A stretch of DNA of 64,000 nt, from assembly GCA_028015205.1 (NCBI GenBank), contig CM051516.1, positions 39,446,230 through 39,510,229 of the forward strand. Direction: 5' to 3'. A program made the position numbers and the translations under genes. Each line of letters opens with the position of its first letter. The first letter of the stretch is position 1. Shown here in pieces: positions 3,331 to 58,394 of this stretch. The notes beneath the pieces are model-generated. The model was not told the DNA's origin. It made no database searches and saw only the letters and a program-made list of their open reading frames with translations. This DNA comes from Mytilisepta virgata (lineage: Eukaryota > Mollusca > Bivalvia > Mytilida > Mytilidae).

Positions 3331-6300
3331 GTAAGTTCTTTTTCATTCTTAAAATTTACATCGAATCTTCTTTATCGTGAAATCTATTTGTCTTATTTAT
3401 AAGCATTGGCTACTAACTTGCTGTTCATGTTATTCTCCAGTTTGCATTTTGTTTTAGCTTTTTATCACTATAAATACAGTATTTTTTTAAACGTTTAGAA
3501 TTTATTAGAAAAATCAAATACTAAATGACACATTTCCAAAAAATATCATACATAATGCAAAAAAGGTACTTCTAGGTGTCTGTGTCGCCTGTAGTTTAGA
3601 AGAAACTAGATACTATGGTGTCATATCTTGAAATTTTTGTTTTATGCCCATAGTGATAACTGACGAAAATTTGGGTACGTATAAAGTGAGACACGGAATC
3701 GAAACGAAACAAAACGAAATATAACGAAACGAAACGAAACGAAATAATACATTAACCCAGATAATTCTTGAAAAGAGAATCGTTTGGCCACAGGCAATTG
3801 TTTCTGTTAGAAAAAACATTTCCTTAATGGTATTTTTTAACAGAACATATGTGCCTGTGCGTTTGGCGTGGTTTTGATCGTCTAAATGGCAATTTTGGCG
3901 ATGCTCTTGAAAATAGTCATTGTTTAAACTGAATATTTAAGATGAAAGGAAATACCAGTATGTTCTCTTAATGATCGCTTTGTTTTTGATTCAAGGCATA
4001 TTTCCCGATTTTTTAACTTGAATTTTGCAACTACAAACTATATTTTTTACATGTAAACTCCCAGTGTTTTATCTCTTCAATTAGACAATTCATATTGCGT
4101 ATTGGCTTGGAGTTTTTAAATGTTCCGGCCACGGTTGTAACATTCAAAGACATTAGCGATAATAATCGATATGTGTTGCGTTCTATTAAAAATCGCTAAA
4201 ATATGGATGCTTTTTGTTCGAAAATAAAGTTATTGTTTAAAGACTGCATACTTAATTTAGTACTCAATGGGAGCGGACAGTACCTGTATCGTACAGTAAA
4301 GCTTTGATGTTTAAAAAATCCTTCTTAATTGAATTTAAATATTTTAAAGACATTGGACCCCATTCTAAAGACCCTGTACACTATTCTAAAGATACCGTGA
4401 AAAAAAATGTGAAATAGGTCCAAAATTCAACATTGCTTAAAGTAAGTTCTATAGTATATAATATTTCGAAGGTAACCGAACAATATACATGTTAAATTTA
4501 ATTATTTTACAGACTGTGCATCTCCCCATGCAGGAAATTAGGCGCAAAAGGGTAAATAAGGTCTTTTATAAATCCACATTGACTCATTGACTTTTTGACA
4601 GACATTGAACAAAATCTGCTGCGCTGTAATGCAGCATTACATGCAGCTGAACCTTTTGATCAGACTATAAAAGACCCCTTTTCGTTATATTTCGTTTCCT
4701 TTCGTTATTTTTCGTTTATTCATTTTTCATTTCGTTTCGTTTCGCTATATTTCGTTTCGTTTCGTTATATTTTGTTTCGTTTGATTCCGTTTCTCACTTT
4801 ATAAGTACCCGATAATTTTGCCCTTTAATTTTATATATAATCAATTCTGATGGTGTAATCAGAACAAATTCTCAGAGAGTACCATTTAAAGATCAGTTTG
4901 GACGTCAATCAGCTGGGTATTGGAATTGATCCCAAAAGAAGAAAAAATATTTGCAAAATTTGATTGAAATAGACCAAGTAATCGAAGTGTTTATGAGTCA
5001 CCGTTTAATAACCTTCTAAGTATGGCCTTCATCGTCCGATTTATTCATCTTTGGCAATTGTCGCATGACTTTTTGACGTACCCACCTTAACGTATGATCG
5101 GTTGTTTACCTACAAGAAACGCATGAGAATACGAAATAATTTTAAAGTCCGAGGATGCTTAACTAAACCAATAATACACCTCTGTACCTGTTTATCGACG
5201 ATGTAGTTTAAATTGTAATTTGTTCTCGTCCCTGCTTTACTCAAATTTTTAATTTACAATTTAAATACTTGTAATTTTTTTTCTGTGATATTGATGACAG
5301 GCTGTATGCTTAATTCAGAAAAAAAGCCTTGTCTTTTCATTTTCATGTTATGGATTTTCACTGTAATTACTGCCGTATTTTTGCCGATATTGAAAACAAC
5401 GCGATGCAAAATTACCCTTTTAGAAATGCTTCAAAAAAGAACACACATTTAAAAAAAAAGTTTACCTGCCACAATAAACGACGAGTTATGGGACCTAACT
5501 ATGACCGATATAGAAGCAATATTCTAAGATGTAATAGAAAAACGAACTAAATTATAATTTCGCAACAGCATATCCTTTTTGCTGCATGGCGACGTTACCA
5601 GAAAAAGCAAATAGATAAAACTGTATCGCACGTATGGATACCGTCTGGCTGCATTTGAATGTCTTATGCATTTTACTGTTAAACCTTAATGGAATGGATT
5701 ATGCTGTGAGTATTGTAATGAGTTTTGGGAAATTAAATTGCTCTGTTACATAAATACAGACTGATAAATTGGATATTTTTTATTGCAACGTTCAACATAC
5801 AGACAGCAAATTACAATAAAACAATAAATAGTTGGTAGTAAACAATAGTTATTGAAAAAAAACGAAAGTTTTAAGGGCAGCTTCTTCGACTCTGTCTACT
5901 AATGTAGAGAAACTTATTTCTGTTTTCAATGCATATTCTTATTTAATTTACATATCAATATCTTAAACTAAAATTATTAAACAAGATACAATTCGAGCTT
6001 TAATGGTACAAAAATTATATTAATGACTATCCTGAACCTAATTGGATCGTAACATTTCCATATGACAAAAAAGACGCAATTTTATTTTCCGAATTTTCAT
6101 TTTTTTTCAGACATGTCTCATTTTAAAACTTGTATGTTTTGTAAGAATCTCTTTTAGGGAAGAATATTTCGCAGTCAAACCTTACATAACTTGTACATTT
6201 TTGTTACTGGAGAATAATAAATATGTTTCACAAACTGATACAACTTGCGAAATTTTGTATAAAAATTCAAAATACTTTGTAATGGAATATTGTAATTCGA

Positions 6301-9300
6301 GGGAAGCATTGGTAAGGGATTGCAAAACATAGTTTATATATTACAATGTGCGACCCATGCTAGTTTTTGTTACAATGTTGATAACAAATTCAAACGTCCT
6401 AGCTTTTGATAAATGAAGACTCACCTCAAGATCATTTCCTTGTAATTGCTACAGACAGAACTGTTTGCATTACTGATAAATGGTTCTTCCTCTTAATTAC
6501 CTCGGGCCTTTATACTAGCTTCTCAGAAACACTGACGAAAAAATTCCTTTCGCAATCCTTGTCAATTAAGAGTCGAACACACCCCGGCACAGGTAAGATT
6601 CGAACTCACAACCACAGTGTTGACATGCTAGTGATCATTAGTAGTGATGACGAACTACCTAGACCACTCAGCCACAGAGGCCCCCTCTCACAAATGAGTT
6701 AAGATGTATTCTGTTATATGTTGCGTCTTACTTTCATTGAGACTTCGAGTGTTACCCACATTAATGTGACGTGTGTCATTAAAAGAGCATGAAATCCTTA
6801 ACTTTCCTGTATACTTGATGTCACTTATGGGAGTCCACGTTTCTTATTCTAAATAAGTCGTTGTCTTCTTTTAAGTTTCTTTAGTTTGCTTGTTTGTACT
6901 TTTGGGGTATATATTTGTAGTATTTGTTTGGTGTGATACTATTCCCTGGAAGTTACTTTATCTTTGAACTTTGGTCCACTGACTTATAGCTTTGGTGTGC
7001 TGAAATTCCTATTATTGGAGGACTTCAGTGGGGGTTTCTGCTGTTTGGTTGTAAGAGATGTTTAACTTTGTCTACTGACTTATAGCGTTGGTGTGCTGAT
7101 ATTCCTTTTACTGAAGGACTTCAGTGGGGATTTCTGCTGTTTGGTTGTGACAGATGTTTAACTTTGTCTACTGACTTATAGCTTTGGTGTACTGATATTC
7201 CTTTTACTGAATGACTTCAGTGGGGGTTTCTGCTGTTTGGTTGTGAGAGATGTTTAACTTTGTCTACTGACTTATAGCTTTGGTGTGCTGATATTCCTTT
7301 TACTGAAGGACTTCAGTGGGGATTTCTGCTGTTTGGTTGTGACAGATGTTTAACTTTGTCTACTGACTTATAGCTTTGGTGTACTGATATTCCTTTTACT
7401 GAATGACTTCAGTGGAGGTTTCTGCTGTTTGGTTGTGAGAGATATTTAACTTTTTCTACTGACTTATCGCTTTGGTGTGCTGATATTCCTTTTACTGAAG
7501 GACTTCAGTGGGGATTTCTGCTGTTTGGTTGTGACAGATGTTTAACTTTGTCTACTGACTTATAGCTTTGGTGTACTGATATTCCTTTTACTGAATGACT
7601 TCAGTGGGGGTTTCTGCTGTTTGGTTGTGAGAGATGTTTAACTTTGTCTACTGACTTATAGCTTTGGTGTGCTGATATTCCTTTTACTGAAGGACTTCAG
7701 TGGGGATTTCTGCTGTTTGGTTGTGACAGATGTTTAACTTTGTCTACTGACTTATAGCTTTGGTGTACTGATATTCCTTTTACTGAATGACTTCAGTGGA
7801 GGTTTCTGCTGTTTGGTTGTGAGAGATATTTAACTTTTTCTACTGACTTATCGCTTTGGTGTGCTGATATTCCTTTTACTGAATGACTTCAGTGGGGGTT
7901 TCTGCTGTTTGGTTGTGAGAGATGTTTAACTTTGTCTACTAACTTATAGCTTTGGTGTGCTGATATTTCTATTACTGAAGGACTTTAGTGAGGGTTTCTG
8001 CTGTTTGGTTGTGACAGATGTTTAACTTTGTCTACTAACTTATAGCTTTGGTGTGCTGATATTTCTATTACTGAAGGACTTTAGTTAGTGAGGGTTTCTG
8101 CTGTTTGGTTGTGAGAGATGTTTAACTTTGTCTACTAACTTATAGCTTTGGTGTGCTGATATTTCTATTACTGAAGGACTTTAGTGAGGGTTTCTGCTGT
8201 TTGGTTGTGACAGATGTTTTATTTTGTCTACTGACTTATCACTTTGGTCTGCTGATATTCCTATTACTGAATGACTTCAGCGGGGTTTCTACAGTTTGGT
8301 TGTGACAGATGTTTATAACTTTGTCTACTGACTTACAGCTTTTGTCTGCTGATATTCGTATTACAGAAGGGCTTCACTGGGGGTTTCTGCTGTTTGGTTG
8401 TGACAGATGTTTAACTTTGTCTACTGACTTACTTTGGTCTGCTGTTATTCGTATTACTGGAGGACCTCAGTGTGGGTTTTCTGCTGTTTAATTGTGACAG
8501 TTGTTTAACTTTGTCTACTGACTTATCGCTTTGGTGTGCTGATATTCCTTTTACTGAATGACTTCAGTGGGGGTTTCTGCTGTTTGGTTGTGACAGATTT
8601 TTAACTTTGTATACTGGCGTATAGCTTTGGTGTGCTGATATTCCTATTTTCTTCAAAGCTAAAAAGTTACTACACAAAGTAAATTCTTTCATTCCAGGTT
8701 TAATAAAACGTATCACAAAATAACGAAATAAATTTGATGCACTGAGGCCATTTCGTTGACTGACAACTCAACAGTGCTCGAGATCAAAATATTGGAAAAC
8801 CAGTTAAAGATATAATGATGAATTAATAAGCACAACCATCAAAAATCAAAACAAACAAGTATCCAAACTCAGCTAAGGGTTACCTCTGCCTTAGAAATTT
8901 CTGGTAGTTTATGTCAAATTTGGAACGGAAAATTTAAAGGCATTTGTGTAATGAATCATGCCATGACAAAATTTCTTACGCCTTTTCCTGACTTGCTTCC
9001 TCAGGGCGATAAATAAATATTCAAAACAAAGCAAATATTATTAAAAGCTATAAGTGATCTAAAACGTATATATAGACAGCCATTTAAGAGAGAGATACTT
9101 CTTAATAATATTGAATGTGACTATTTGGCTAGACTAATTACATACCTAGTGTCATATGAGACTTTCATTGCAAAGTCTGGCTAGTTTTGTGTCGTTTCAC
9201 CTCTCTGTTTTTAAAAGTACCTTGTCCCTAGTTGATTTATATCGTGCAAATGTGATGGATTATTTGGCTTTAAATGTGATGATTGCATAATATATGGTAA

Positions 9301-28552: not shown

Positions 28553-30215
28553 AGTCCCGAGTTTCCTCTGACGTCAAACGACCGTCACAGAATTCATAAC
28601 AAATTTCCTCTGACGTCAAACACAGCCTCCATAGAATTCATACCAAATTTCCTCGGACTTAAAACGGCCTTCATAGAATTCATACCAAATTTCTTCTGAC
28701 GTCAATCGACCTTCACAGAATTCATAACAAATTTCATCTGACGTCAAATACGACCTTTATGGAATTCATACCGATTTTCTTCTGACGTCAAACGCGACCT
28801 CCATAGAATTCATACCAAATTTTCTCGGACTTAAAACGGCCTTCATAGAATTCATATCAAATTTCCTCTGACGTCAATCGACCTTCAAAAAATTCATAAC
28901 AAATTTCCTCTGATGTCAAATACGACCTTTATTGAATTCATACCGAATTTTTTCTAACGTCAAATGCGACCTCCATAGAATTCGTACCAAATTTTCTCGG
29001 ACTAAAAACGGCCTTCATAGAATTCATATCGAATTTCCTCTGACGTCAAACACGACCTCGATAAAATCCTTACCGAATTTCCTCTGACGTCAAACGCGAC
29101 CTCCATAAAATTCATACCAAATTTCCTCGGACTTTAAACGGCCTTCATAGAATTCATACTGAATTTCCTCTGACGTCAAACTCGACCTCCATAGAATCAA
29201 TATCGAATTTCCCCTAACTTTAAACAGCCTTCATGGAATTCATACCGAATTTCCTCTGACTTTAAACCGCCTTCATAGAATTTATACCTAATTTTCTCTG
29301 ACGTCAAACGACCTTCATAGAATGCATATCGAATTTCCTCTGACTTTAAACCGCCTTCATAGAATTAATACCCATATCCTCTGACGTCAAACAACCTATA
29401 TAGAAGTCATACAAAATTTCCTCTGACGTCAAACGACCTTCATAGAATCCATACCGAATTTCCTCTGACTTTAAACCGCCTTCATAGAATTAATACCGAC
29501 TTTCCTCTAACGTCAAACGACCTTCATATAATCCATACCAAATTTCTTCTAACGTTAAACGGCCTTCATTGAATTCATACCAAATTTCATCTGACGTCAA
29601 AACGGCCTTCATTGAAATCATATCGAATTTCCTCTGAAATGAAACGTCCTACATAGAATTTATCCTGGATTTTCTCTGACTTCAAACGGCCTTCATAGAA
29701 TTCATACGTACTTTCCTCTGACGTCAAACGACCTTCATAGAATTCATACCGAATTTCCTCTGACTTTAAACCGCCTTCATAGAATTAATACCGACTTTCC
29801 TCTAACGTCAAACGACCTTCATATAATCCATACCAAATTTCTTCTAACGTTAAACGGCCTTCATTGAATTCATACCAAATTTCATCTGACGTCAAAACGG
29901 CCTTCATTGAAATCATATCGAATTTCCTCTGAAATGAAACGTCCTACATAGAATTTATCCTGGATTTTCTCTGACTTCAAACGGCCTTCATAGAATTCAT
30001 ACGTACTTTCCTCTGACGTCAAACGAACTTCATGGAATTCATACCAATTTTCTTCTGACGTCAAACGGCCTTCGTAGAATTCATACTCACTTTTCACCTA
30101 CGTCAAACAGCCTTCATAGAATTTATACCAAGTGTTCACTGACGTCAAACAACCTTCATAGAATTCATACCGAATTTTCTCTGATGTCAACAGCCTTCAT
30201 AGAATTAATTGTGGC
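28553..30215. repeat. 42-bp minisatellite, about 39 degenerate units
   Basis: Units read approximately CCTCTGACGTCAAACGACCT then TCATAGAATTCATACCGAATTT. Most are 42 bp, some 40-45. EcoRI-type GAATTC and TGACGTCA words recur in nearly every unit. On the minus strand the unit is 14 codons reading about IRYEFYEGRLTSEE, open for up to five units (29882-30097), but length variants break the frame elsewhere. A block of seven units is itself duplicated with a 295-bp offset (29466 and 29761). Confidence 0.95.
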
Positions 30216-30219
30216 CGTG

Positions 30220-33200
30220 GTAATGTTCTCTGACGTCTCCGCAGGGCCCTATTCAATTATAAAAAAGGCCGTTTGATATTTGAGGGATTTGGAATTATGC
30301 ACCACAAATAAACATTTTATAGAATGTACTAGTTTTACAACCAAAATAGTGTATGTTTATCCACTGATCAATGGTTAAGGAGTATATATTTGGTATTATA
30401 ACCTGTGGTAGCCCTGTCCCAAACGGGACCCCGTTTTCTGTTTTAGACTCTTGTCAACATCATTTTATATTTTTATTGTATGGTTTCTTTTCAGTTTAGT
30501 GCTCGTTATGTAGTGCTTGTTGAAACCACAAGACAATCCAAAGATGTAATCAATTTTCTTCCATTTTCATTCATATCCAATATTATCTCAAACCACATCT
30601 CCTACGTTTTTCATATTATATCATACAATTTAGGTCGATAAAAAAATGTGTTCGTGTGTAAATTTTGATTCTTATTCCTCTATTATTTCAAAGTAGAGAA
30701 GAAGATTTAACCCCACCACTGATTAGTGTGTGTGTACCAAGTCAGACTGTCCTGGCTCTCTCTTGTGTGATTGTGCTTGTGTTCTTTCATGCTATTTTTT
30801 GTACGGTATTCTAACTATTGGGTGTCGTTGATTGATTTGCATGTCATTGTTGACCTTTTTTGTTATCCATTTTATTGTTTATTTGAAGATTTATCGTGTA
30901 GAATTAAAATGACTGAAATTAACCAAGAATTTTTGGCAACGAAGCTTTTAAGAAATTTAATTGTTTTTCGGTTTTAGTAGTTTAGCAATAACATTACACT
31001 TCCATCAAATATTGTATAAAGATAAATGTGATCAATATGCTGCGTAAAATCTTTCGTCAAGATTTCAATATTTTTCTTTATACCTAGTACATGTAATATA
31101 ACCTATATTTGAATATAAATACCGTAAAATGGTCCTTGTCATCTGGTAATGGCATGTTCATTTAATTATGCTATGATATTTCAACGGAAGAAGAATATTA
31201 ATCTTTAAAACTGCTATTTATTTTCTGCATGGATAGGAATTTTAATAGAGTAATTATGATAGATGTTTACATGTAATTGCTCATAATAAATACGCACTGC
31301 GGATAAAAGCTAACAGACCTTTCTTACTGCATATAATGAGGTCGTTCTGTGATGTCGTTAATTTTTCATAATATTTTTGACACATAAAAATTTTCAGTAA
31401 AAATGTCAATGTATTATTTCCTACAGAAACATTTTCTAAAAGCTATAATTGAATATTTATGGTACAATTTCATTCTGGTGTATTACTGGTCGCAAATTGG
31501 GTCCCATTGTCAATTCTCTGTAGATGTTTATAATGTTCCTTATATTAAAGTAAAACTGAAACTCTATATGAAGGCCTATCAGGTTTTTGATATATATTAG
31601 AGTTTCATACGTGAAACCGTGAAAATAGGTTGAATTTTAAGTATTTTTAACGTTTCATGTTCATACCAATTTTTAAAAATAATCAAATACCGTTTCAAAT
31701 TTACATTCTAATGGCTTTATAAAACAATCCAATTAAAAAGATATTTTTATGGGTCCTGTTAATCTTGATCTATAACTGAAAATTCTAAAAATAATTTTAC
31801 TAAATTATTTTTGAAAACTGAAAATGAGTTCAGTCCTCGCAAATCACAAACATCAACGGCTATAGTTATTCTGTGTTTCAATGAATAATTAGATACGCAA
31901 GTATTTTTTTTCCAGTGCTTCACAACTCTTGGTTTAATAACTCGCTATTTAAGGTAGATATGTCAACCGAATTATTCCTACCACTATGCCGGCTAAAAAG
32001 GTTCAACAACATGGCAGCATCCATGCGAAATCGCATTCAGCCATTGCTTTCAACGTGATTACGTGAATATAGATTACCTTGAACAAAATAAGTTAAGATA
32101 TGGATTTACCTCAACTTTTTAACATTCAGTGTCATGAAATTAAAAATAAATACGAAAGAATCCACCTGGAATCAAATTTGACAAGAAAAGTCTTTGTTTA
32201 ATGGGGCAGCCTTACTGTGCTACATACTAAGGCTAGACAAAGTTTTGTTCGCCAGAAACGGAAACGGAAGTAAGGGAAATAATTTGCAACAAATTATAAT
32301 TTTAGAGTCAGAATCGTGATACCAGAAATGCGTTTCTTGAAAGGACTGTTGCTGTGCTCGCATCATTGGCCACGCCAACAGCATACTACTGCTTATTTTG
32401 AATTTGATGTTGTTATTAACCAGGGAAACAAAAATAGCATCTATCTGTCTCCCAGAGAGCATGCGGGGGTCTAGATACTTTGCTTGCTAAAATATACTTA
32501 CAAAGTACTACTATTTATGCGGGAGGTCTAGATACCTTTTTGGTCTCGTTTGCTTGCTAAAATTTACTTAAAAAATACTACTATATAATTCCATGTAATA
32601 TTCAGTCTTTTGTTTTACTATATCAATGTATCTAAGGTTAAATGCGTTTTTTGATTTTAGACTTTCTGAAAACTATATAAGTTTTTCTGTTAAAATGTGT
32701 AACTGTATATTTGATATTAGTGATTCATCGAAGAATAACATACACGTTGATCTGTTTTCATTCAGTAAAATTCGGCCACATGCAGATAACAACAAAAAAA
32801 ATTTTTCTGGGTCTCGTAAGATTTGTAAGTACAATGTAATTGTTGTGACTTTTCTCATGGTGACGTAACCTTTATATTGTATTATAATGAATATGTTTCC
32901 GCCAAATAGAACAATATATTTAAAATCTGCAAATGCTAACGCATGTTGAAATACGTACTGAGTGATTTTTAAACGTACTCCTCGTGACTCGTCTAAATCC
33001 TGACGGCTTTGAGAAATCAAATTTCTAATTGTTTAAACGTGAAATCGATGTCCATTTTAACAAGAATAACTCAGATTTAATTTTTCTTGTGTATGGTTAC
33101 AAAACCGTTTCCTTCCTCTTAATGATAAGATAACACGGTAAATTATTACAAACTGATAACTCATCCATTACGTAATACTAAAAAAACATGAAAGAATAAA

Positions 33201-33709: not shown

Positions 33710-33715
33710 TAATTG
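33710..33715. repeat. 6-bp target site duplication, left
   Basis: TAATTG directly outside the left terminus TATGGAAAGCCAC; an identical copy lies outside the right terminus (37977-37982). Confidence 0.8.
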
Positions 33716-33748
33716 TATGGAAAGCCACAACTGCCTTATGTTGTATTC

Positions 33749-34460
33749 GATCTTTATATTCGGTGCTTTTTTTAATATATTCGGTCCATACATCATTGTG
33801 TGTGGTGCTTATGCCACTGTGTGTGGTGCTTTTACCATTATGTGTGGTCATTTGAACATTATATTCGGTACTAATTGCATTATATTCGGTGCAAACTTCA
33901 TTGTATGTGGTGCTTAAACCATTATATGTGGTAGTAAATGCATTATATGTGGTAGTAAAGGCATTCTTTGTGGTAGTAAAGGCATTCTTTGTGGTAGTTA
34001 AAGCATTATATTCGGTACTTTTTAAATCATATCCGGTGCTTATTTCATTATATTCGGTACATTGATCATTGTATTCAGTGCTTGCATCATAGTGTGTGGT
34101 GCTTTTACCATTATGTATGGTCAGTTTAACATTATATTCGGTACTGATTGCATTATATTCGGTACTGATTGCATTATATTCGGTACGAACTTCATTATAT
34201 GTGGTACTTAAAACATTATATGTGGTAGTTAATGCATTATATGTGGTAGTTAAAACATTATATTCGGTACTTGTTTCATTATATTCAGTACATTAATCAT
34301 TCCATTCAATGCTTATGACATTATACTCAGTAGATAAATCGTTATATTCAGTGCATACATCATTGTGTGGAGTGCATTCTTTTTCCATTGTTATATGCAG
34401 TCACAAAATCATTATATGCGGTAGATAAATCATTATATTCGGTGCATTCTTCATTATACG
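33749..34460. repeat. 21-bp tandem repeats, left arm
   Basis: About 33 units such as CATTATATTCGGTACTGATTG with a period of exactly 21. Two sub-motifs alternate in blocks: TATATTCGGTAC and TATATGTGGTA. The array lies between the terminus and the SAM exon, where subterminal transposase-binding sites or promoter elements would be expected. The length divisible by three leaves several frames open as seven-residue repeats; I regard this as incidental. Confidence 0.95.
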
Positions 34461-34576
34461 ATTTTTCGATGATGATGATACTTGACGGAAAAAGCCGGAA
34501 AAACTTCGGCAATTTTACGAATGTTAACGAGAACGGATAAAATTCATAGACATATATTTTGTATACACCGAAGAAA

Positions 34577-34780
34577 ATGGAAGCTGTGTTGCAGGAGTGC
34601 AATTTACAACATTTATATACCAATTTTGAAAGGGAAAAGATAACGCCAGACATAATATGTAAATTAGGAAAAGATGACATGGTAGCATTAGGCGTCCTGA
34701 ATCCAGCTGACATGATGCGTCTCCGAACCAGCTGCATTAGCTTTGGTTCACAGAAACCGAGCAAAGTGGCACAGCCACAG
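34577..34780 (+). CDS. SAM-domain first exon, left arm of foldback element
   Basis: ATG at 34577 in good context (AAGAAAATGG) opens 68 codons ending in a donor ACAG|GTATAT at 34781, phase 0. The protein reads MEAVLQECNLQHLYTNFERE, then ITPDIICKLGKDDMVALGVL and NPADMMRLRTSC. This fits a sterile alpha motif (SAM): a first helix, an I.pd...L...DM..LGV core and a closing helix. SAM domains mediate protein-protein or RNA contacts. In invertebrate and fish genomes I recall SAM-like N-termini on integrase-type DDE transposon proteins, which fits a first exon separated from its catalytic exons. No downstream coding exon remains in the element. Confidence 0.8.
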
Positions 34781-35311
34781 GTATATGAATTAATGTTTTA
34801 ACAAATGACCATATTATATACTTAATTTCGAGGTAATTTTCAACATGTTCACACAAAAATACCCTTTCTTTCCCCCCCAAAAAATAACAGAGACATATAA
34901 TACAAGGGATTGGCAACTTCTTAAGAGTCCTGTTAAAAGTTCAAAATATCATCCAGCCACACATTTACTGGTTCGATTTTATTTCAATTATATTTCTGCA
35001 TACAGTAAAACAAGTTTTATATTGATAACTTTTGTCATATTTTAATTCGAAAATGAAAAATATAAACACTAAAATAACAATATTAATGCAGCTTGAATTT
35101 GTATTGTTACCTTTTTGAACTTCTTTTTTAATCATTTACATGAAACAGCACACCCACCTGGCAGTTTTTTAAAAGAACTGTTGAACCGATGCAAATGAAA
35201 AAAACATGAAAAATGATGCATGATTTTTATGAATTCATAGGGGGTTGAATGAAATGATTGTTTCGTACATTATCGGTATAGGATGTGCATCTTTGAAAAT
35301 CATAATTTATT

Positions 35312-36380
35312 GTAAGATGTAAGATGAGTATTACAATTCAGATTTTGCTAAAAAACAGTTTTGTCAGAGAAGAAATTACAATTTTCAAAGTTGCACTTTT
35401 TATACCGATAATGTTAGAGTAATGTAAGGACAAATATTGGAATTATACGAGTAAATATTATAAAAATCTGGCTTTTTATGACCTGAAAAGTGCATGACAT
35501 ATATGTAAGGTGAGTAAAATAATTAAGTTTTCATTCAAAGAAGTTTCCTCAAAGGAGGAATTTCAATTTCAAAGATGCACTTCAAATACCGATAATGTAT
35601 GAAATTAACTATTAGAGTAATGTAAGGATTACATAGCGTCATAGGCCACTATTATAAAAATGTAGCTTTTTATGATCTGAAAAGTACATGAAATATGTGT
35701 ATTAAGTAAAACAATTAAGATTTTGTTCAAAGAAGTTCCCTCAGAGGAGAAATTTCAATTTTCAAAGTTGCACTTTTCTATATCGATAATGTATAAATAG
35801 AGATTATATACATAGTGTGATGGTAAAACTTCTTGTATCAGGTCGAGTCGGTTGAATGAGCTGTATCACTACGAGTCGCACAGTCATGCAAACGACGAGA
35901 CCTGATGCAAAAATTGTTCCATCACATCTTTGTGTATGTGATCAGTTTATCTATAACATTTAACAAAATAAAAAAACAATTTAAAATTATGTAACGTTAC
36001 AAATGTTTTAAAAAAGGGAACTATTTGAGTGAGTGATGTCGTCTTGTTTTGGTTTACAAGTAATGTAAGGACAAAATTGAAATTACATGTATATTGACAA
36101 CTTTCATAAAAATTTGGCTTTTTTTAAACTCAAAAGTACATGAAATATGTAAGGTGAGTAAAACAATTGAGATTTTGCTCAAAGAAGTTCCCTCAGAGGT
36201 GAAATTCCAATTTTCAAAGTTACACTTCCTAGTATAAAATCAAATATTAGAGTAATGTAACTTGTAAGGACAAAATTGAAATTATATGGACAACTTTCAT
36301 AAAATTTTGGGTTTTTATGATCTGAAAAGTACATGAAATATGTAAAGTGAGTAAAACAATTGAGATTTTCTTCTGCTGTG
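35312..36380. repeat. Loop of the foldback: about five ~200-bp repeats
   Basis: Repeated modules contain AGTAATGTAAGGACAAA, ATAAAAATTTGGCTTTTTAT, AAAAGTACATGAAATATGTA, GTGAGTAAAACAATTGAGAT, AAAGAAGTTCCCTCAGAGGA and TTTCAAAGTTGCACTT. They occur around 35330, 35510, 35700, 36130 and 36290, all in one orientation. Part of the module also closes the inner end of the right arm. Confidence 0.85.
35808..35945. repeat. Imperfect hairpin at the centre of the loop
   Basis: GTGATGGTAAAACTTCTTGT, then ATCAGGTCGAG, is matched in inverse by CGAGACCTGATGCAAAAATT, then GTTCCATCACAT. The stem is about 35 bp with mismatches. Its centre lies within about 30 bp of the symmetry centre of the whole element (35846). 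Confidence 0.75.
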
Positions 36381-36911
36381 AATAAATTATGATTTTCAAA
36401 GATGCACATCCTATACCGATAATGTACGAAACAATCATTTCATTCAACCCCCTATGAATTCATAAAAATCATGCATCATTTTTCATGTTTTTTTCATTTG
36501 CATCGGTTCAACAGTTCTTTTAAAAAACTGCCAGGTGGGTGTGCTGTTTCATGTAAATGATTAAAAAAGAAGTTCAAAAAGGTAACAATACAAATTCAAG
36601 CTGCATTAATATTGTTATTTTAGTGTTTATATTTTTGATTTTCGAATTAAAATATGACAAAAGTTATCAATATAAAACTTGTTTTACTGTATGCAGAAAT
36701 ATAATTGAAATAAAATCGAACCAGTAAATGTGTGGCTGGATGATATTTTGAACTTTTAACAGGACTCTTAAGAAGTTGCCAATCCCTTGTATTATATGTC
36801 TCTGTTATTTTTTGGGGGGAAAAGAAAGGGTATTTTTGTGTGAACATGTTGAAAATTACCTCGAAATTAAGTATATAATATGGTCATTTGTTAAAACATT
36901 AATTCATATAC

Positions 36912-37115
36912 CTGTGGCTGTGCCACTTTGCTCGGTTTCTGTGAACCAAAGCTAATGCAGCTGGTTCGGAGACGCATCATGTCAGCTGGATTCAGGACGC
37001 CTAATGCTACCATGTCATCTTTTCCTAATTTACATATTATGTCTGGCGTTATCTTTTCCCTTTCAAAATTGGTATATAAATGTTGTAAATTGCACTCCTG
37101 CAACACAGCTTCCAT
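36912..37115 (-). CDS. SAM-domain first exon, right arm of foldback element
   Basis: Mirror copy of the exon at 34577-34780, encoding the same 68 residues and ending in the same donor. It faces inward, so transcripts from the two arms would converge on the loop and be complementary through their shared arm sequence. Confidence 0.8.
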
Positions 37116-37231
37116 TTTCTTCGGTGTATACAAAATATATGTCTATGAATTTTATCCGTTCTCGTTAACATTCGTAAAATTGCCGAAGTTTTTCCGGCTT
37201 TTTCCGTCAAGTATCATCATCATCGAAAAAT

Positions 37232-37943
37232 CGTATAATGAAGAATGCACCGAATATAATGATTTATCTACCGCATATAATGATTTTGTGACTGCATATA
37301 ACAATGGAAAAAGAATGCACTCCACACAATGATGTATGCACTGAATATAACGATTTATCTACTGAGTATAATGTCATAAGCATTGAATGGAATGATTAAT
37401 GTACTGAATATAATGAAACAAGTACCGAATATAATGTTTTAACTACCACATATAATGCATTAACTACCACATATAATGTTTTAAGTACCACATATAATGA
37501 AGTTCGTACCGAATATAATGCAATCAGTACCGAATATAATGCAATCAGTACCGAATATAATGTTAAACTGACCATACATAATGGTAAAAGCACCACACAC
37601 TATGATGCAAGCACTGAATACAATGATCAATGTACCGAATATAATGAAATAAGCACCGGATATGATTTAAAAAGTACCGAATATAATGCTTTAACTACCA
37701 CAAAGAATGCCTTTACTACCACAAAGAATGCCTTTACTACCACATATAATGCATTTACTACCACATATAATGGTTTAAGCACCACATACAATGAAGTTTG
37801 CACCGAATATAATGCAATTAGTACCGAATATAATGTTCAAATGACCACACATAATGGTAAAAGCACCACACACAGTGGCATAAGCACCACACACAATGAT
37901 GTATGGACCGAATATATTAAAAAAAGCACCGAATATAAAGATC
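37232..37943. repeat. 21-bp tandem repeats, right arm
   Basis: Inverted copy of the left-arm array. On the plus strand the units read like AGTACCGAATATAATGCAATC. Confidence 0.95.
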
Positions 37944-37976
37944 GAATACAACATAAGGCAGTTGTGGCTTTCCATA

Positions 37977-37982
37977 TAATTG
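37977..37982. repeat. 6-bp target site duplication, right
   Basis: TAATTG directly outside the right terminus, identical to 33710-33715. Confidence 0.8.
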
Positions 37983-38299: not shown

Positions 38300-41200
38300 C
38301 TGAAATAACATAACGTTATATAAAGATTCATATTTTCTCTTGAAAACTGTGGACATGTATGCTCTTAAAATGAAATTTACCTGAGCATGTCTAAGAGGAA
38401 AATGAACACAATTTGATATTGATGGCCGGAAGTTAAGTTTAATACATCGTCGGAAACCCACGGCCGGTCGCGCTTACGCTTTGCTACACTTACTGGTGAA
38501 AGCCCGACCGGCCGTGGGTTTACGACGATGAGTTTATTATTGTTGTTATTGTTATTATTTATTTATTTATTTATTTGTATTGTTGATCTTTCCTTTTGCG
38601 TTCAAGTTATCTTCATTGTTTATTACTTGCACAGTAAGTTACATTTATAAATAGTTTACTCACCGAAGCAATAGCTGTTTGGTTGACAGTAACTTGTATA
38701 TATGTAAACAGGTTACGGTAATCTAATGCCAGTCTTTTGTAATCGAGAGTATTTATACCATCCCTGTGGAATGTCACCTTTCCAGACTTCAGTATATCAA
38801 ATCTACAAATGATAGGACGTATATTATATGTCTAAATTATTATTAGACGTTTCTCTATAGAATATTAAGTTTATCTGAGAGCCTTGGTGACTTCTTTTGA
38901 TACAAACAATGCCGATACAATTAGATGCTTGTCTGCTCGGCTGCTGCTCACCAAATGATGAAGCCGGTTAACATTTATAATACCATCTTCAATTTAAAAG
39001 ATGTCTAACAGATATACACATGATTGTCTTGCATTTCGTACACGTGTCAATCAGTTTATATATTTATCAACTGAATTCTTGTTTTAGATATATATAAACT
39101 ACGCTCCAGACATTTTCTGATAAAATATATTTCTAAAAGGGGAACATAACACTTTACACGACGCAGAATCTTCCTAGACATGTTATGTAAGGGTTAAAAA
39201 AAATAAATCCAGCTCTTATTTTTTTAATTGAATTTCCCAGCCATCTCCAAATGTTAAATAAAAACACTTACATAATAGTAGTATACAGTAACTGATGTAA
39301 TAAAAATATCTTTGGTTCAAAAACTCACTAAAACCTCTTACCTTGCTAAATTCTCCTCCTGTTTGACATGTGGTAACATTTTATAACGGGCAATGTCTTC
39401 CGGGTATCTTTCTATGGTCTGATTGGTGGCATTGATTCTGGAAATAAATAGACTGTATGTCATCATGTTCTAACCTTTTCTACATAATAAGAATTTATTT
39501 CATAACTATGTACGGCTATACGCTCTATTTCCATGCTTGCTGAAGGTCTCAACTCAACACTACGAATAAAAAGGTTTGGTTTTGTAATTGTATAATTATC
39601 AGCTAATTTCTTTATGCAGAATTGGTAGAACCAACTTAACTGGTCGGGTGTTTAATAGGATACTCCAGTGAAGAGTAAATGTGTATGCATATGATCTGAT
39701 TACGGATCATTTCTACCGTCCTTGTGGAACATCAATTTTGTCCCCTGTTGAAGAACCCAGTAAGATCGAGCAGTCTCTTTATCAACTTTAGGAATGTTTT
39801 TTTTCTAAATGACTGGCTGTCGTTGAAATTTTAAAGGAGTACTATTGTGGGTCATTTGGTTGTAATGAATGTTAACAGACCGAAAGCCACACCACAGATA
39901 TGAACCTTGTGTATATTTGGAATGTTTTTGTTTGTTTGTTTGTTTAGTGGGGGTTTTACGCCGTTTTCAGCACATTTGGCTATTTCGCGGCGGTCAGTTT
40001 TTATTGGTGGAGGAAGCCGGAGTACCCGGGGAGAACCACCGACCTTCGGTAGGAAAATTGGCAATCCTTGTCAATTAAGATCGGAGTCGAACACACCCCG
40101 CCACAGGTGAGATTCGAACTCACAACCTCAGCGTTGACAGGCTAGTGATCATTTGTAGTCGTGACGAACTACCTAGACCACTCGGCCACCGAGGCCCCTG
40201 GAATGTTTTTAGACAGACCTATATATCACCCTTAGGATATTTGGTAATACTTTAGCTCGTTGTAAAATGTGTTCAAAATATCCTCCACCAGACCTGATGC
40301 ATAAAACTTTGCCAACATTTAGACTGCATTTTTAAATTATAGTTTGTGCGTAGATGAAGTTGATATCTATTCGGTGAATATGGGCGCCCTAATCTTTATG
40401 TACATATATTTCAAACTATCAATACCTGTTAAACATGTCATCGTCCTCTCCTCCCCAACCGAAATATCTGTTAGAGTAACCATTTACTGTATAAAATTGT
40501 TCCTTCGTCATGGCTGCCACACCACCAAAAATCTTTACGTATGGAAGTCTGAATGAAAATTTAGGGTTTATGTTTTATGTTTAAACTGACAACAAACATT
40601 TCATATATACTAGTTTGAAATTTTAACTAGCGGATCAAGTGGGCCAGAATCACTAACCCAGATAATGAAGCACATAACATATTGTTTGTACATCATATAT
40701 AGCGAACAGAACGATATGATAAATTATTTTTATAAAGGACCTTCCATACACAATTTCTAGAGAAAAAAGATATTACTGGCCTTGTAGTTTCATTCGACTC
40801 AGGATGATGAAACTGATTTCCCGTGGGATTCAATGCAAACCTATGTGCCCTGTGCATCAATGTATACCGACCGATCAACAAGAAATGGGGAATCTTTGTA
40901 GAGGGTCTCCACATCGTTATTCCTATAAGGTTTGAAAAGATTAGGAATTGAAATTTTAGACGAGAAGAAATTAGAAATTTTTAAGAATATTTAAAAGCTC
41001 ATCAATGTTTCCTTTGCAGATGTATAGTAGACCAGAAACAAACTTTCATTTGAAAATGTCTCAATAGTGTTTTATCTAATCCACCTACTTATATTTCATA
41101 CGATCCACAGCAACAGACATGTGTCTAGGATGGTCTGGACAGCTATACATGTTATAGTCGTTCTCAGGTAACAAGTCCACATCATGGAATATAAAACACT

Positions 41201-44200
41201 GATAATCGTATATTTTCAAGGATTCTAAGGCTCCTACATTCAGTAGTAGAGCTCTGTTAAACTGTACAGACGGATCCTGTAATAGAGTTACTGGTTAGAA
41301 ATCACAAGCATCAAGGTATTTAAGACCCCGACATTTAGGGTCAGAACTCAGTTTAAATATACAGATGGGTCGTGTAAGGGTTGTCAGTATTCTAATACCC
41401 TTCAATTTAGGAGCAGGTATACAGCCCTGTCTTGAAGTCAATTTGTTAGCTATTTATCAATGGATTCTAAATCCCTTACATTAAGGCATATTCTGCTAAG
41501 ATGAGTTCATGTGCCAGTTTAAACCTGGTGGCGCTAAAAAATGTCCAAACCAATCCAATGCAGTAAAATTTATATATACCATAATATGCTGTATGCGAGC
41601 ACAACAATAGCCCTTTCCAGAAACTCATTTCTGGTATCAGGATTCTGATTCTAAAATTATAATTTGAAGCAAGTTATTTCCCTTAGTTTCGTTTCGTTTG
41701 AACGAAACCTTTTCTAGCTTTAGTATGTAGCACAATATGGCTGCCTGCATTAAACAAAGACTTTTCAAAATGACCCAGATGTAGAAAATGCACATGCTCC
41801 TATAGAGCTCGCTGCGCTCGCTATAATTGATTTTCATTAATTTAAAGTTAAAATATTTTTCTTATTTCCCATAACTGATTTTCTCAATCTTTAAGTTACA
41901 AGGTATGTTAAATTTATTAAATCAATATGACCTGGACAATATGCGAAAAGGCCGATAACCGTGAATGAATCGGCCACTCCATTACATTCAACATATTCAA
42001 TGGAACCTTTGAAGCTCTGCCGATTAATTATCACAGATTATATTTGTATATCTTTGTACAATTGTTCGACATTTGAGATGTCGATCATAAATCAGGATAC
42101 CCCAAGTCCCGGGCTTAAAATGTTCAGCTGACTCCTGTAAAAGGAATATCTGTGGTTGAAAATTTCGCGCATTTCATTACGGCTTGGTCAGTTGTCACCA
42201 TAACATTCAGGAATAGCTCTGCCAGATGTTGTAACGGAATCGTCACTGGGATTCAGATACTCGTATAGGAGAGGCTTACCTGATTATGCATTTTGTGTTT
42301 TTCACCGATCTTTTTTTTTTTTTTTTTTTTGGGGGGGGGGTCTACTTTGCTATAGTTTCAAAGTGTCCTAAAGATGTATTAACGTCATTGAAAGATATCT
42401 TTTAATTTCAAAATTATTTATAAGAGTCTTGAATATTAAGACTGGATCATATTATGTCATGGATCAATTTTTTTATATCCACCTATTCCTTATCTTTCCA
42501 AGAAAATTTCTTGTCGATATTCTGCAATAATTTCAATATTATTGGCCATGAGCCCTGGTGAAAAGACAGTTATTGTTAAAACATACAGGGAATGTTTATA
42601 ATTTAGATGTTTTCTATAATTAAAAATAAACAAACAAATTTTCCAGATTATCCACCGTCTGAATTTAACCAAATTTTTAATCCAGCAACTGAATTTTGAC
42701 AACAGTTTGGGTACTTTATAAAGCAGTCATTAGAACTGCCAAAATGGGGTCAATATCAATGTTCTACTATATATTTTTTTTAATGATCCATATACTTTGT
42801 AATACTTCTGTCAATATATGTACTTTTTATTTTTGTTTAATGTGTTTGACACATATGGTTGTTACATAACATGCATAATATGCTAATAAATTTATTATGA
42901 CTATTTATAAATCCTGTTAGTAAAATCATATCAATTATATAGACTTACCAAATCAATTACGTAAATGCCATAGTCTAACTGTTGTCTCTGTAAAATTGGA
43001 TGAAGGTTATTTAGAAGTATTTTCAGGTAAACATCACGGTCTCTAAAGGGTACTACAATAGCAACACGATGTCGTGATGTACAATTTTTTGGTTTAAAAC
43101 GTCCACCTGGTTTTATATCTGGGAATTTGGATTCTAACTCTGACCAAGTTAGGACTTCTGTATCAGGCTTTGTTTCGCCCCCTGAAAAATAAAAGAAATA
43201 CATCTAGATATGAAGTAGGCTAAAACGTGTCGAATTATAGTAACTTATAATATTAGTTTCATACATGTATCGAAACGTAAGCAAGTGAGCCGGTGAAGAA
43301 ATGCTTCGATCGTTAACCAGTTAGTAAAAAATCACTTTGAGCTCAATATCATTAAAAGCGGTAAAGCTGGACTAACGACTTAAATGAATGAATAGGGTGG
43401 CGTTCACCCCCAAAAAAGAAATTAAAAAATTCTGTCACTAAAATAATTTTTTTTGAATCGTTGATAAATAAAAATGACGAAGATATGGCATGGGGTAATG
43501 TCGATGCGACAAAAACCCTGAATTACTATGAAGCACTGAATAACAGGGACTTCAACTAAAACAAAAGGAATACTTTTTACATTTATTTGATACATATCAA
43601 ACTGGGCGACTGCAATACCACCAACTCGGGGTACAGCAAATATCACAGCTACAAATACGTTTGACATAAGTGTAAGCTCTTCCAATCAAGAACCGGAGAA
43701 AGTTGAACCGTTGATATCTGTAAAAAGAGGATACGGGTTAAGAGGCAATTAGATCACGCCCTATGTACGTCTGGTTTAACTAAAAATTGTGTCTGTAATA
43801 CACGGATGCCCCGCCTAAAATTTAGGTGATCATGCAAGAATGCTCAGTACTATCCAAGGCACATTCACTGATGAAGTTTCATTGATACACTATGCTTAGT
43901 TCTAAAGAAATAAACCTAAACGCAAAACTTAACCACAGTCGCTAAAGCATAAAATGTAGGTCATAATGACCCAGTTATTGTATGACTGCTCATTACTACC
44001 CAAGGTACATCTACTGATGAAGTTTCATTGATACACTATGCTTAGTTCCAAAGAAATGAACCTAAACGCAAAACTTACCCACAGTCGCTCAAGCATAAAA
44101 TGTAGGTCATAATGACCCAATTATTCTATGACTGCTCATTACTATATACACAAGGTACATCCACTGATGAAGTTTCATCGATACACTATGCTTAGTTCCA

Positions 44201-55400: not shown

Positions 55401-58394
55401 AATTTGAAAATCTTTCTCATGTGCACATAAGTATACTTACTTTCTGTCATAATAAGTCTCTACTAAAGAAATAATGTTCTTTCTGGTTTACAAATGTACT
55501 TCTGTGACATATCATTTTTTAAATATCTCAGTCAAATGAAATTAAAACAACAGTAATTATATAATTAAAAAATATATTATTTGAAAACTGGTCAGTTTTA
55601 GGTGAGAATGGAATTTTAGGACAAAAAGGGTAAGACTCCTTAAGTACGAGATATTACAAGTATGCTGGATTAAGACTTTGGAATAAAAAGAAAATATAAG
55701 GCTTTTTAGGATGTAAATTATGACAATGGTTTTAAAGTGATTTCTAAAGATCTGACAATAATTATATAACATGATATATATGGCATGCACATATTTTGAC
55801 AAAATTACAAGAAAAGAACAATTTGATTGTTGTTCTTCATCTTACACTCTTGCTTTTTTCCTAACATGTGCACTGATTAGATATATGTATCTAAATCTAC
55901 TTGTAGGATGGAATGATGGAACCTTTAATGAATTCCAGAATAAATGGGATGAACAAGATGTGATCCCAGGAGGCATTATCCCTGGGGGTGGGAATGAGTA
56001 TGACCAGGAGACAGGAGGGGTATCATGTTATATTTGCGATAGCTGTAACAAGGAACCATTTGATCCTGATGTGTATGGTGTCGGTACTAAGAGTGGTTGT
56101 TACATGTGTGTTAAAGCTTGGGATGATGGTAGGTTTCATAAATATAATATTTTGGAGTCAAAAAGTTCACCAACAGATGTGAATTGGAAAAAATATGTGA
56201 ACAATTAAAATGTTATGAAAGTAAGGCCATCTAAATGTAAATATCTGGTTCTCAGACACCCCCGCCCCATTTAAAAAGTTGCCAACAGAACAAGTTTATA
56301 GAAATTTAATTTTAAATTGGGGCCAAAAGTTTTTCAAGGATCTGCCGACACAGACTCAATTTTCAAGTGTTGTGTGACATTGATCAAGTCGAAACGAAAA
56401 TAAATAAATAGCTGACATATGATTATGGCAGCTTGTTTGACTTGAATATTAGCTCCATGAACGATACTGCCTTTTTAGTCTACAATTTCCATGGAACAGC
56501 TCTGCAGAGGAGTGTTTGCAGGAGGAATGGAGGAAATTTGAGGCATTGAAAGCAGATAACACATTTGTGTAATTAAAACGCCATAGAAGTGAAAAGATTC
56601 AAACTAGATTTGTATGTCGCCAAAATAAACACCTAAACTGAAAATCCCTTGCCTCTTTTGACAGGAAAATAGACTAAAAAAATTAATTCCCTACCTATCT
56701 TTCCATTTTATCTGCATCACCAACCGTGAAAGCAAATCTAGTAGCCTCTTGACTCCATCTGTGTGTCCATCTGTCATGCTTAGGGCTACATACTTTCTGT
56801 AATCTGTAACTCGGACTGTATTGAACCAATATTTTTAAAACTCTAGTGTTTATATACATATTGAAGCGTGCTTCTCCTATTTTGGACAAATTTGACAAAT
56901 TTTTACTATGAATTCTTGCATGTTGAACTTAGCCATATTTCAGCAATACATGCTATGAACAGTGCATACATTGTGTAATCTGCAACTCCGACTGTATTGA
57001 ACCAATATTTTTCAAACTTTGCATCGTGTTTATATACATATTGAAGATGTGTACCTCCTATTTGGGGGCAAATTGGACAAATTTATATTATGAATTTTTG
57101 CATGTTGAACTTAGCCATTTTTCAGCAATATATGCTATGAACGGTGTATACTTTGTGTAATCTGTATCTCCGACTGTATTGAACCAATATTTTTCAAACT
57201 TTGCATCGTGTTTATATACATATTGAAGATGTGTACCTCCTATTTGTGGGCAGATTGGACAAATTTATGAATTTTTGCATGTTGAACTTAGCCATTTTTC
57301 AGCAATATATGCTATGAACGGTGTATACTTTGTGTAATCTGCATCTCCGACTGTATTGAACCAATAATTTTCAAACTTTGCATAGTGTTTATATACATAT
57401 TGAAGATGTGCACCTCCTATTTGGGGCAAATTGGACAAATTTTTACTATGAATTTTTGTATGTTGAACTTAATAGCCATTTTTCAGCAAAATATGATGTG
57501 AACGGTACATGCGTTGTGTATTTTTAACTATGTTGCCTACACCTAAGAAGATGTGTTGCCTGCAACAAAAAATGATGCTGAACATTATTAAAGATGGGTA
57601 GGTCAATTTTTGTTCCTGTCTGAGTATTTGATGTACAATGCCCTGACAAACATATGACGGTGACACAGTTCCAGACATGTAATCAATCTTGTTGTAAATT
57701 GTCTGAGAACCTTTGGTGGCCTAAAACTTAAAATGTTATGAAAGTAAGGCCATCTAATCTGAAATGATGGAAAATATCAGGGATAATGAGCCTGAAAGTG
57801 ATTCATTTTGTAATTGTTCACAATTGAAATATTTCAGCTTAAAACAATAGAAAATCTGACCATTTTTTACAGAATTTGAAATTTTATGCATTATCTTTTC
57901 TTCCTTATGGTTTTGGACTTAAATACTCAATTTCTACTATACAGTAATAACTTTCTTTTCAGCTTTTGAAACAGCAACAAGGAAATGCTACACACAGTCA
58001 GATTATCTAGTCATACTAGAAAGCTTTAGTGCAGGTAAGAATATCACATGTATAATTCAGGGGAGATAATGAGTGCAAGACAGAAATTGTTTCAACATTT
58101 ATGATGATAGTAAAGGATGTGAAATTTTTGAATTTTTATTTACTAGACAAATATAAAGAATTCAAATAGTTGCTTATTGTTATCATTTTTAAAAGTTTTT
58201 TATGCCATATAACATTTTGTTTTACAGATCGTTACCTTGGATGTAAGAAATTCGTCAATAGTTACCAAAGGACACTGAATTATTGCTTCTGTAATACAGA
58301 CAAATGTAACCATGGAAACAATTTATTTTATAATCCTGTTATGGTTATGTTTTCATTATTTTTGTCATTATATAAACTTATGTTAAGATTGTGA
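52429..58394 (+). CDS. Predicted GPI-anchored CUB + Ly6/uPAR domain protein (six exons)
   Basis: Exons 52429-52492, 53882-54175, 54852-55091, 55907-56128, 57963-58034 and 58228-58394 give 352 residues. All five introns are phase 1 with GT/AG ends. Residues 1-21 are a signal peptide. A CUB domain follows (about 30-190), with MYYRDGENCIVYI, CYDYLRLFNG, SGICGR, LTVQFVTDN and GGFVLKI in the usual order. CUB domains are extracellular binding modules. A Gly/Pro-rich spacer (IPGGIIPGGG) leads to a ten-Cys Ly6/uPAR domain (about 238-325) from SCYICDSC to the closing CFCNTDKCN. The last ~20 residues are hydrophobic without a cytosolic tail, as for GPI attachment. Polyadenylation signal at 58647-58652. 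I know no named gene with exactly this layout. The exon 3 start rests on phase and domain fit, as several AGs lie nearby. Confidence 0.88.
53882..54175 (+). CDS. CUB-Ly6 exon 2: first half of CUB domain
   Basis: TTCCAG acceptor, then EIVVQSTDYCSPCSNEYC and on through DTVQSHSGNMYYRDGENC to CYDYLRLFN. Donor G|GTAAGT. The intron just before it contains a 36-bp tandem duplication (AGAAAAGAGTTGTTTATTTT, about 53812-53875) that keeps the frame open upstream but is not part of the protein. Confidence 0.9.
54200..54295 (+). repeat. Short dispersed repeat, copy 3
   Basis: ATAGCCCTTTTCAGAAAGTC, ATCACGATTCTGACTCTTAA, TTATTTCCCTT. Same family as 32260-32360 and 41588-41690. It lies in CUB-Ly6 intron 2. 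Confidence 0.75.
54852..55091 (+). CDS. CUB-Ly6 exon 3: second half of CUB domain
   Basis: Acceptor GTTATAG, then PRVDNARMLPGVPASGICGR, with FRTTQNELTVQFVTD and KGGFVLKITQIYY completing the CUB fold. Donor G|GTAAGT. Confidence 0.85.
55907..56128 (+). CDS. CUB-Ly6 exon 4: spacer and start of Ly6 domain
   Basis: Encodes VIPGGIIPGGGNEYDQETGG as a flexible spacer, then VSCYICDSCNKEPFDPDVYG and SGCYMCVKAWDD. Donor G|GTAGGT. Confidence 0.9.
56205..57757. mobile_element. Insertion with short inverted ends between 30-bp direct repeats
   Basis: TTAAAATGTTATGAAAGTAA then GGCCATCTAA occurs at 56205-56234 and, identical over 30 bp, at 57728-57757. Just inside, GGTTCTCAGACA (56247-56258) and its exact complement TGTCTGAGAACC (57700-57711) face each other. 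The interior carries the ~180-bp tandem repeats. It lies in CUB-Ly6 intron 4. Whether the 30-bp repeats are target duplications or a recombination footprint is unclear. Confidence 0.65.
56690..57680 (-). repeat. ~177-182 bp tandem repeats, about 4.5 units (family R, copy 1)
   Basis: Units contain TGAACTTAGCCATTTTTCAG, GCTATGAACGGTGTATACTT, CGACTGTATTGAACCAATAT and TTTATATACATATTGAAGAT. Anchors at 56812, 56989, 57171 and 57348. The flanks (GGGTAGGTCAATTT, TGCCCTGACAAACATA) reappear inverted at 62605-63175. Confidence 0.9.
57963..58034 (+). CDS. CUB-Ly6 exon 5: middle of Ly6 domain
   Basis: A 72-bp exon: FETATRKCYTQSDYLVILES then FSA. TTTTCAG acceptor, donor G|GTAAGA, phase 1 on both sides. 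Confidence 0.88.
58228..58394 (+). CDS. CUB-Ly6 exon 6: Ly6 end and GPI signal
   Basis: RYLGCKKFVNSYQRTLNYC, then FCNTDKCNHGNN, the diagnostic end of a Ly6/uPAR fold. A hydrophobic C-terminus (PVMVMFSLFLSLYKLMLRL) and TGA follow. Confidence 0.92.

Follow-up and report, generated by a model that had tools for sequence, protein, structure and literature searches.

Foldback transposons such as FB, Galileo and Tetris of Drosophila have long inverted arms, non-autonomous copies and a variable middle, with internal tandem repeats in Tetris; foldbacks are mostly classed in the Mutator superfamily, and Galileo in the P superfamily (PMC4079207, PMC4168063). Their origins are often argued from relics without known autonomous parents, as with Tetris (PMC4079207). 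Transposons of the IS3EU type (IS3EU/GingerRoot) usually have 6 bp target-site duplications and TA..TA ends (PMC10045372), and in rust fungi their termini read TAYGG..CCRTA (PMC12730594). Here we describe a foldback element at 33710..37982 of a 64,000 nt stretch of Mytilisepta virgata contig CM051516.1 (the window, whose numbering is used for all positions without another handle). It is very probably a non-autonomous derivative of a giant cut-and-paste transposon with IS3EU-type ends, generated by template switching during gap repair and moved in trans. The giants are the parent type of the foldbacks, and parents and daughters coexist in one genome.

From its 5' end, a giant consists of a TATGG terminus, an array of 21 bp units, the SAM, HTH and DD34E integrase-type exons of a transposase and at least 25 kb of other DNA. 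At locus L047, which is one end of the giant on C7, a single arm is followed by intron 1 with the same ∼190 bp repeats as in the window element, an HTH exon (HTH_23, E = 2.4e-4, below the curated cut-off) and a DDE exon (rva_4, PF24764, E = 7.5e-75). The exon edges are CAG/GTATAT, TTGTAG/AAT, AAG/GTTTGT and ATTACAG/GT, and the core reads D-56-D-34-E with the triad chosen by eye. Copies of this transposase on C5, C6 and C21 have 99, 99 and 97% protein identity to it. The C6 giant follows that on C7 to ∼12.5 kb and the C5 giant to ∼11.3 kb at 99% identity or more (the parts read begin ∼3.5 kb inward of the terminus, with the first ∼50 bp of C6 in addition), except for a ∼187 bp gap in C6 and small indels, while C21 is 99.1% identical to C7 over 3.7 kb around the core. 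The C7 giant (12146689-12177723) has TATAAC on both sides; at its far end the terminus is followed, by eye and with one extra T, by the same array over the ∼250 bp read, from which the far end of C6 differs at one of 246 bases. In the C5 giant one terminus reads TGTGG and the 5' terminus has one mismatch. Close to its far side are a short element and three plus-strand termini (G000:C5:34280044, 34280998 and 34281952), which are exactly 954 bp apart and form a tandem of terminal pieces. The largest giant, G000:C21:1610797-1650428 (39.6 kb), is flanked by TTTCTG on both sides; the distance from its left terminus to the transposase core is 13.5 kb instead of the usual ∼5 kb, so that ∼8 kb of something stands in between.

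Compared with this parent, the window foldback would consist of the first ∼2.4–2.7 kb of a giant with the outer 1,596 bp mirrored on the other side, such that both of its ends are 5' ends. Its features are as follows.

33710..33715, no strand: left target-site duplication TAATTG, belonging to the only TAYGG..CCRTA pair among those listed with a perfect 6 bp duplication (20 of 20 terminal bases match)
33716..35311, plus strand: left arm, 1,596 bp, with terminus TATGGAAAGCCACAACTGCC.., 21 bp array, SAM exon and start of intron 1
33754..34458, plus strand: subterminal array of 21 bp units in the left arm, without coding signal
34577..34780, plus strand: transposase exon 1 of the left arm, SAM-like domain, 68 codons, with splice donor CAG/GTATAT at 34781
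35312..36380, minus strand: spacer (loop), 1,069 bp, with degenerate ∼190 bp intron repeats continuing into the right arm
35806..36060, no strand: ∼258 bp insert between intron-repeat copies, an imperfect palindrome (100/135 bases), present in the parent at L047 too
36381..37976, minus strand: right arm, 1,596 bp, collinear with the parent and mirrored in the left arm
36912..37115, minus strand: transposase exon 1 (SAM-like) of the right arm, reading inward, mirror of 34577-34780
37234..37938, minus strand: subterminal array of 21 bp units in the right arm
37977..37982, no strand: right target-site duplication TAATTG

The long, nearly identical inverted arms thus form most of the 4,261 bp element. 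From the tip inward, each consists of the terminus (TATGGAAAGCC..), the tandem 21 bp array over ∼705 bp and an inward SAM-like open frame ending at a splice donor. Direct alignment of 33716-35311 with the reverse complement of 36381-37976 gave 1,596 bp in each arm, no indels and two mismatches, exactly the values given in an earlier prediction made from the letters of the window (the original prediction). One mismatch (34872, C/T) lies inside a T/C homopolymer run. At the other (35055, G/C) the left arm has the base typical of the family: the 20 loci read elsewhere in the genome (L031–L050) contain its 25-base context 25 times and the right-arm version not once. Identity between the arms ends abruptly at their inner edge (extension 0). 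The element ends TATGG..CCATA, and an extra T shared after both copies of TAATTG makes a 7 bp duplication formally possible for this copy. A 22-base terminal pattern with up to three mismatches matches twice in the window, against a mean of 0.00 in 100 shuffles; this and the genome-wide count of termini given below exclude a chance origin.

The run of ∼190 bp repeats in the spacer extends into the right arm, and its orientation flips at the left arm. Positions 35587-36380 continue intron 1 of the parent with three mismatches, while the innermost ∼275 bp (35312-35586) are another repeat copy. Because of this anatomy and the comparison with the parent, the right side is likely to be the original and the left arm the mirrored copy. 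The ∼258 bp insert is older than the foldback, because the parent at L047 also has it.

Long perfect inverted repeats are a familiar product of missed-adapter and chimeric-read errors, and a false palindrome created during library preparation or assembly would give two such arms. The window element is nevertheless not such an artefact, because a non-palindromic spacer of 1,069 bp separates the arms, these end exactly at a duplication present on both sides, and the same element is found at other loci with distinct flanks and distinct duplications; we regard the probability of an artefact as negligible.

Copies were sought in the 1.03 Gb host genome. A search with the first 885 bp of the arm gave at least 41 matches, where the best 40 of 153 candidates were scored. 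The 25 bp terminus with up to two mismatches occurs at 168 sites, compared with none for the reversed control pattern; 100 of these sites were listed, exact matches first, and 81 are exact. The original prediction had proposed a search with the terminus for other copies as a check. By adjacency the exact termini pair into 35 elements of 2.69–4.27 kb and three giants of 31,035, 37,437 and 39,632 bp, with five left unpaired. The loci L031–L050 were picked from 12 inverted pairs beside that of the window and 14 single-arm places; 18 of them are foldbacks with two clean ends, and the other two are L047, one end of a giant, and the rearranged cluster L049. The foldback sample therefore comprises 19 elements (the window and these 18). 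With L049, 20 of the 35 short elements were read, the others being known from terminus spacing alone. Pairs of termini with two mismatches were also found at G000 C3:29268194-29272513 (4.3 kb), C3:12734284-12737083 (2.8 kb) and C1:22430612-22431110 (0.5 kb); these may be sister subfamilies, some of them possibly foldbacks or the size of miniature inverted-repeat transposable elements (MITEs).

Identical 6 bp flanking strings of varied sequence surround 19 of 22 elements (the 19 foldbacks and three giants, L049 left out). In L037 and the C6 giant a single base differs between the two flanks, and in L046 the string is displaced by one position, so that 16 of the 18 foldbacks other than that of the window have identical flanks over the six bases compared. 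The window-type foldback itself stands at six other sequenced loci with other target duplications. Identical structures at loci with different duplications imply that the foldbacks themselves move, which bears out the earlier view that TATGG termini flanked by TAATTG mark an element that moved as one unit.

The 6 bp duplication is shared with IS3EU, the TATGG..CCATA ends of the window element and of the 81 exact termini agree with TAYGG..CCRTA, and the DD34E integrase-type core of the parent compares with the integrase-like DDD/E transposase of IS3EU. Ends and duplication fit the published IS3EU type, and the putative assignment to this class is read here from these two features. What differs from IS3EU is the three-exon SAM–HTH–DDE transposase, the size of 31–40 kb, the long subterminal arrays, a HECT domain in one copy and the swarm of foldbacks. 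Styx of Zymoseptoria, an IS3EU element, has extra coding sequences beside its transposase, as do the giants (PMC10853768). The HECT domain (PF00632, E = 2.9e-8) lies inside the 31 kb giant on C7 (L051:195-563, plus strand; G000:C7:12163994-12164362), opposite to the transposase, and this ubiquitin-ligase domain may represent a cargo gene. With this family, an animal genome is seen to contain a giant transposon whose ends are of IS3EU type.

The foldbacks of this family share long inverted arms, non-autonomous copies and a variable middle with FB, Galileo and Tetris, as well as internal tandem repeats with Tetris, and differ from them in having integrase-type ends and enzyme, parents that are present and a transposase exon in both arms. 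Classical FB and Galileo elements have target duplications of 7–9 bp and a transposase of Mutator or P type, compared with the 6 bp duplications and the integrase-type core of the parent seen here.

The 19 foldbacks fall into nine structures. Each is written X/D, for a mirrored arm of X bp and an original side that starts at depth D.

1596/2665: window and six other loci
1110/2017: three loci
961 with a second jump to 1578 (L031 type, two jumps): three loci
1120/2029, 1081/1944, 1227/1792, 1277/1747, 1098/1704 and ∼831/2006: one locus each

All 19 match the C7 parent inward from the terminus. The 12 with a depth below 2,030 are 99.2–99.8% identical to it over their whole depth and the seven of window type 96.7–98.4% to a depth of 2,519; for the window copy itself identity exceeds 99% to a depth of ∼2,390, where a different intron-repeat copy begins. 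Seven junctions can be read cleanly, those of L046 and of the L031 type being excluded, and their overlaps are 0, 4, 2, 2, 6, 2 and 1 bp. Nine structures with overlaps of 0–6 bp are consistent with interrupted gap repair and template switching.

In the proposed sequence of events, a giant excises and gap repair copies inward from one end. The interrupted repair strand would then switch template at a chance junction (0–6 bp overlap) and copy back outward along the same end, leaving a mirror-image daughter. We infer that the parent transposase subsequently moves such daughters in trans, because they keep two complete transposase-binding ends; daughters now outnumber parents. Snapback or doubled Ds elements and the internal-deletion derivatives of P elements are likewise defective daughters of interrupted gap repair with template switching that are moved in trans. 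The product seen here differs in that it mirrors a single end, whereas an internal deletion keeps two unlike ends. Gap repair has been described for P-type elements (PMC4168063). The window element is supported as a passenger with two complete ends and no enzyme. The HTH and DDE exons of L047 have no match in any other of L031–L050, foldbacks of window type included; by this comparison and a scan of four arm frames, the foldback has no complete transposase gene.

Several observations weigh against this picture. The innermost ∼275 bp of the window type are an intron-repeat copy that differs from the one in the only parent read there, that on C7. The closest of the five relatives that were fetched, P0001 (a mussel isoform, 65% over the core), lacks the N-terminal SAM stretch by eye, and in the mussel protein P0064 this stretch is by eye at most a remnant. 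Pfam finds SAM in two of seven relatives scanned, both below the curated cut-off, and scores the SAM exon of the arm itself with SAM_1 at E = 0.001 and 19.8 bits, below the cut-off of 23. Finally, for most of the shorter types an internal deletion of the window type would leave the same picture as a fresh snapback. With respect to the first point, the source of the window type is likely to be a parent with one more intron-repeat unit, and the transposase cores of the C5 and C6 giants do lie ∼180 bp further in than that of C7.

The last point is a serious rival, to which we give somewhat less than an even chance: only 1596/2665 would have arisen by mirror duplication, the shorter structures being centre deletions of the kind expected when the tips of palindromes are trimmed. 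The window-type junction is absent from all other structures, whose arms are shorter and whose loops are shallower, and the presence of 1110/2017 and of the L031 type at three loci each means that derivatives are mobile. At L049, on the other hand, a 1,019 bp arm is joined to parent sequence at a depth of 2,877–2,449, deeper than in the window type and 98.8% identical to the parent, which speaks for at least one further origin, with the caveat that L049 is itself rearranged. This alternative concerns the shorter types and for the window element agrees with template switching on a giant. The L049 cluster (G000:C5:7329994-7339900) has three termini and one arm fused directly to a terminus, as if repair had aborted repeatedly or an element had inserted into a sister copy.

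The assignment of the SAM exon is based mainly on alignments with the N-termini of two transposases, from oyster (47% identity, E = 1e-21 as a single comparison) and from Solemya (36%). The SAM, HTH and DDE exons align in order along one oyster protein (47, 52 and 55%), a layout to which that of a coral relative is similar by eye. The DDE exon has 1,469 relatives at E ≤ 0.001 of 2,057 candidates, and those named among the 120 listed come from mussels, oysters, other molluscs and corals. The closest named ones suggest a bivalve host, and the POPDC exon in the window marks the host as an animal. Of four open reading frames scanned in the arm, only the SAM frame gives a plausible domain. Its best match in a sequence search of solved structures is to tankyrase SAM domains (E = 0.019). 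A model of the exon folded without an alignment has a mean pLDDT of 47.8; the 50 of 78 Foldseek matches that were listed are all SAM-containing structures, none at E ≤ 0.001, and with such a low-confidence model they lend weak support. A protein search gave no proteins resembling the SAM exon alone, searches of plasmids and phages gave no match, and neither the terminus nor the array was found in viral contigs. An exact 19-base motif locates 38 copies of the SAM frame in L031–L050, of which 26 are identical to that of the window, six are changed but open over the whole exon and six are disrupted; this is uninformative on selection, because the family is too young.

Read on the minus strand, the 21 bp unit consists of a 13 bp core, ACC[GA][AC]A[TC]A[TC]AATG, and eight variable bases. 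Since 21 bp correspond to two helical turns, successive cores would present the same face of the DNA, an arrangement expected where a protein binds, and we therefore regard the array as a putative protein-binding array to which the transposase may bind. A coding role was considered, as one frame is open for 192 codons. It was rejected because the ratio of nonsynonymous to synonymous changes among the units is 0.93 in the open frame and 1.0–1.26 in the other five, and all three codon positions are about equally variable.

The near-identity of the arms could in principle also be explained by an old independent foldback family, similar to Drosophila FB or Tetris, in which gene conversion keeps the arms alike. 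Divergence was calculated from substitutions over the first ∼960 bp of the arm, dropping one aberrant arm of L046. The two arms of the window differ at only two of 1,596 sites, 12 of 18 within-element pairs have no substitution (mean 0.00041), and one variant base is common to the two arms of L044 and otherwise occurs only in the aberrant arm of L046, all of which an old family with conversion would accommodate. However, arms of different elements diverge by a mean of only 0.00062 (648 pairs) and arms from the C7 parent by 0.00031 (37 pairs). Outside the aberrant arm, nearly all variant sites (two excepted) are confined to one arm, while conversion would spread or erase such variants, and parents with the same ends coexist with the foldbacks. 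An old, conversion-maintained family is therefore very improbable. An abrupt fall in identity to the parent where the arm ends would have pointed to conversion between the arms; the fall is instead seen at a depth of ∼2,390, within the intron repeats. The original prediction had offered recent origin or ongoing gene conversion; judging from these divergences a recent burst suffices, and conversion is unneeded because arms at different loci resemble each other almost as closely as the two arms of one element. Assuming ∼2e-9 neutral substitutions per site per year, arm divergence would place the age of the family of the order of 100,000 years.

The original prediction missed that the element is not free-standing: it is a derivative of an extant giant, and each arm contains the first coding exon of the transposase. 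The prediction also knew of no description of the element. This stands in so far as our literature search, with Repbase and subscription papers outside its scope, found no foldback of IS3EU type, and needs amending in that the ends and duplication are of a published kind. A survey of oyster satellites has the word 'foldback' once, in a reference, and labels two satellites DNA/IS3EU; the main text of a survey of bivalve transposons mentions neither IS3EU nor foldbacks. Searches on giant transposons of bivalves and on the Pfam name rva_4 had nothing relevant among the matches listed. Here, the parent type and its daughters stand side by side at more than 99% identity, with nine structures and readable junctions, and the template-switching origin is therefore directly testable.

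In Mu killer of maize, part of a transposase gene is duplicated in inverted orientation and the terminal region of its parent transposon is present twice, a layout found likewise in the window foldback; Mu killer is a locus with demonstrated silencing (PMC3440606), compared with the many mobile copies here. Hairpin RNA and small RNAs have been proposed to act against the parent in maize (PMC3440606). By analogy, the foldbacks might be mobile hairpin silencers of their own giant parent, a self-spreading counterpart of Mu killer, although we consider this unlikely. Double-stranded RNA from the foldback is plausible, and a hairpin is possible because the promoter-side sequence and the first transposase exon stand mirrored in most copies. 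If this were true, read-through from either side would produce hairpin RNA as long as 1.6 kb, small RNAs made from it would silence the giant, a peptide comprising the SAM domain alone, from either arm, could interfere with the assembly of the transposase, and the daughters would limit the parent that mobilises them. The family offers a natural test of whether a transposon is held back by mirrored copies of its own transposase exon.

The foldback is enclosed by an imperfect inverted repeat (32205-32363 and 41593-41745, 81–88%, ∼9.3 kb apart) that is perhaps another repeat family. A G+C-rich hairpin at 38446-38531 (GGAAACCCACGGCCGGTCGCG.. / ..CGACCGGCCGTGGGTTTACG), MITE-like by eye, lies 0.5 kb from the foldback, and a tRNA-like match at 40099-40195 (minus strand, 31.4 bits) is possibly the head of a short interspersed element. 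Long tandem arrays occupy 6967-8645 (96 bp units), 28562-30206 (42 bp) and 56789-57520 (182 bp), and an exon encoding a POPDC domain at 2681-3331 (E = 8.8e-30) belongs to a host gene.

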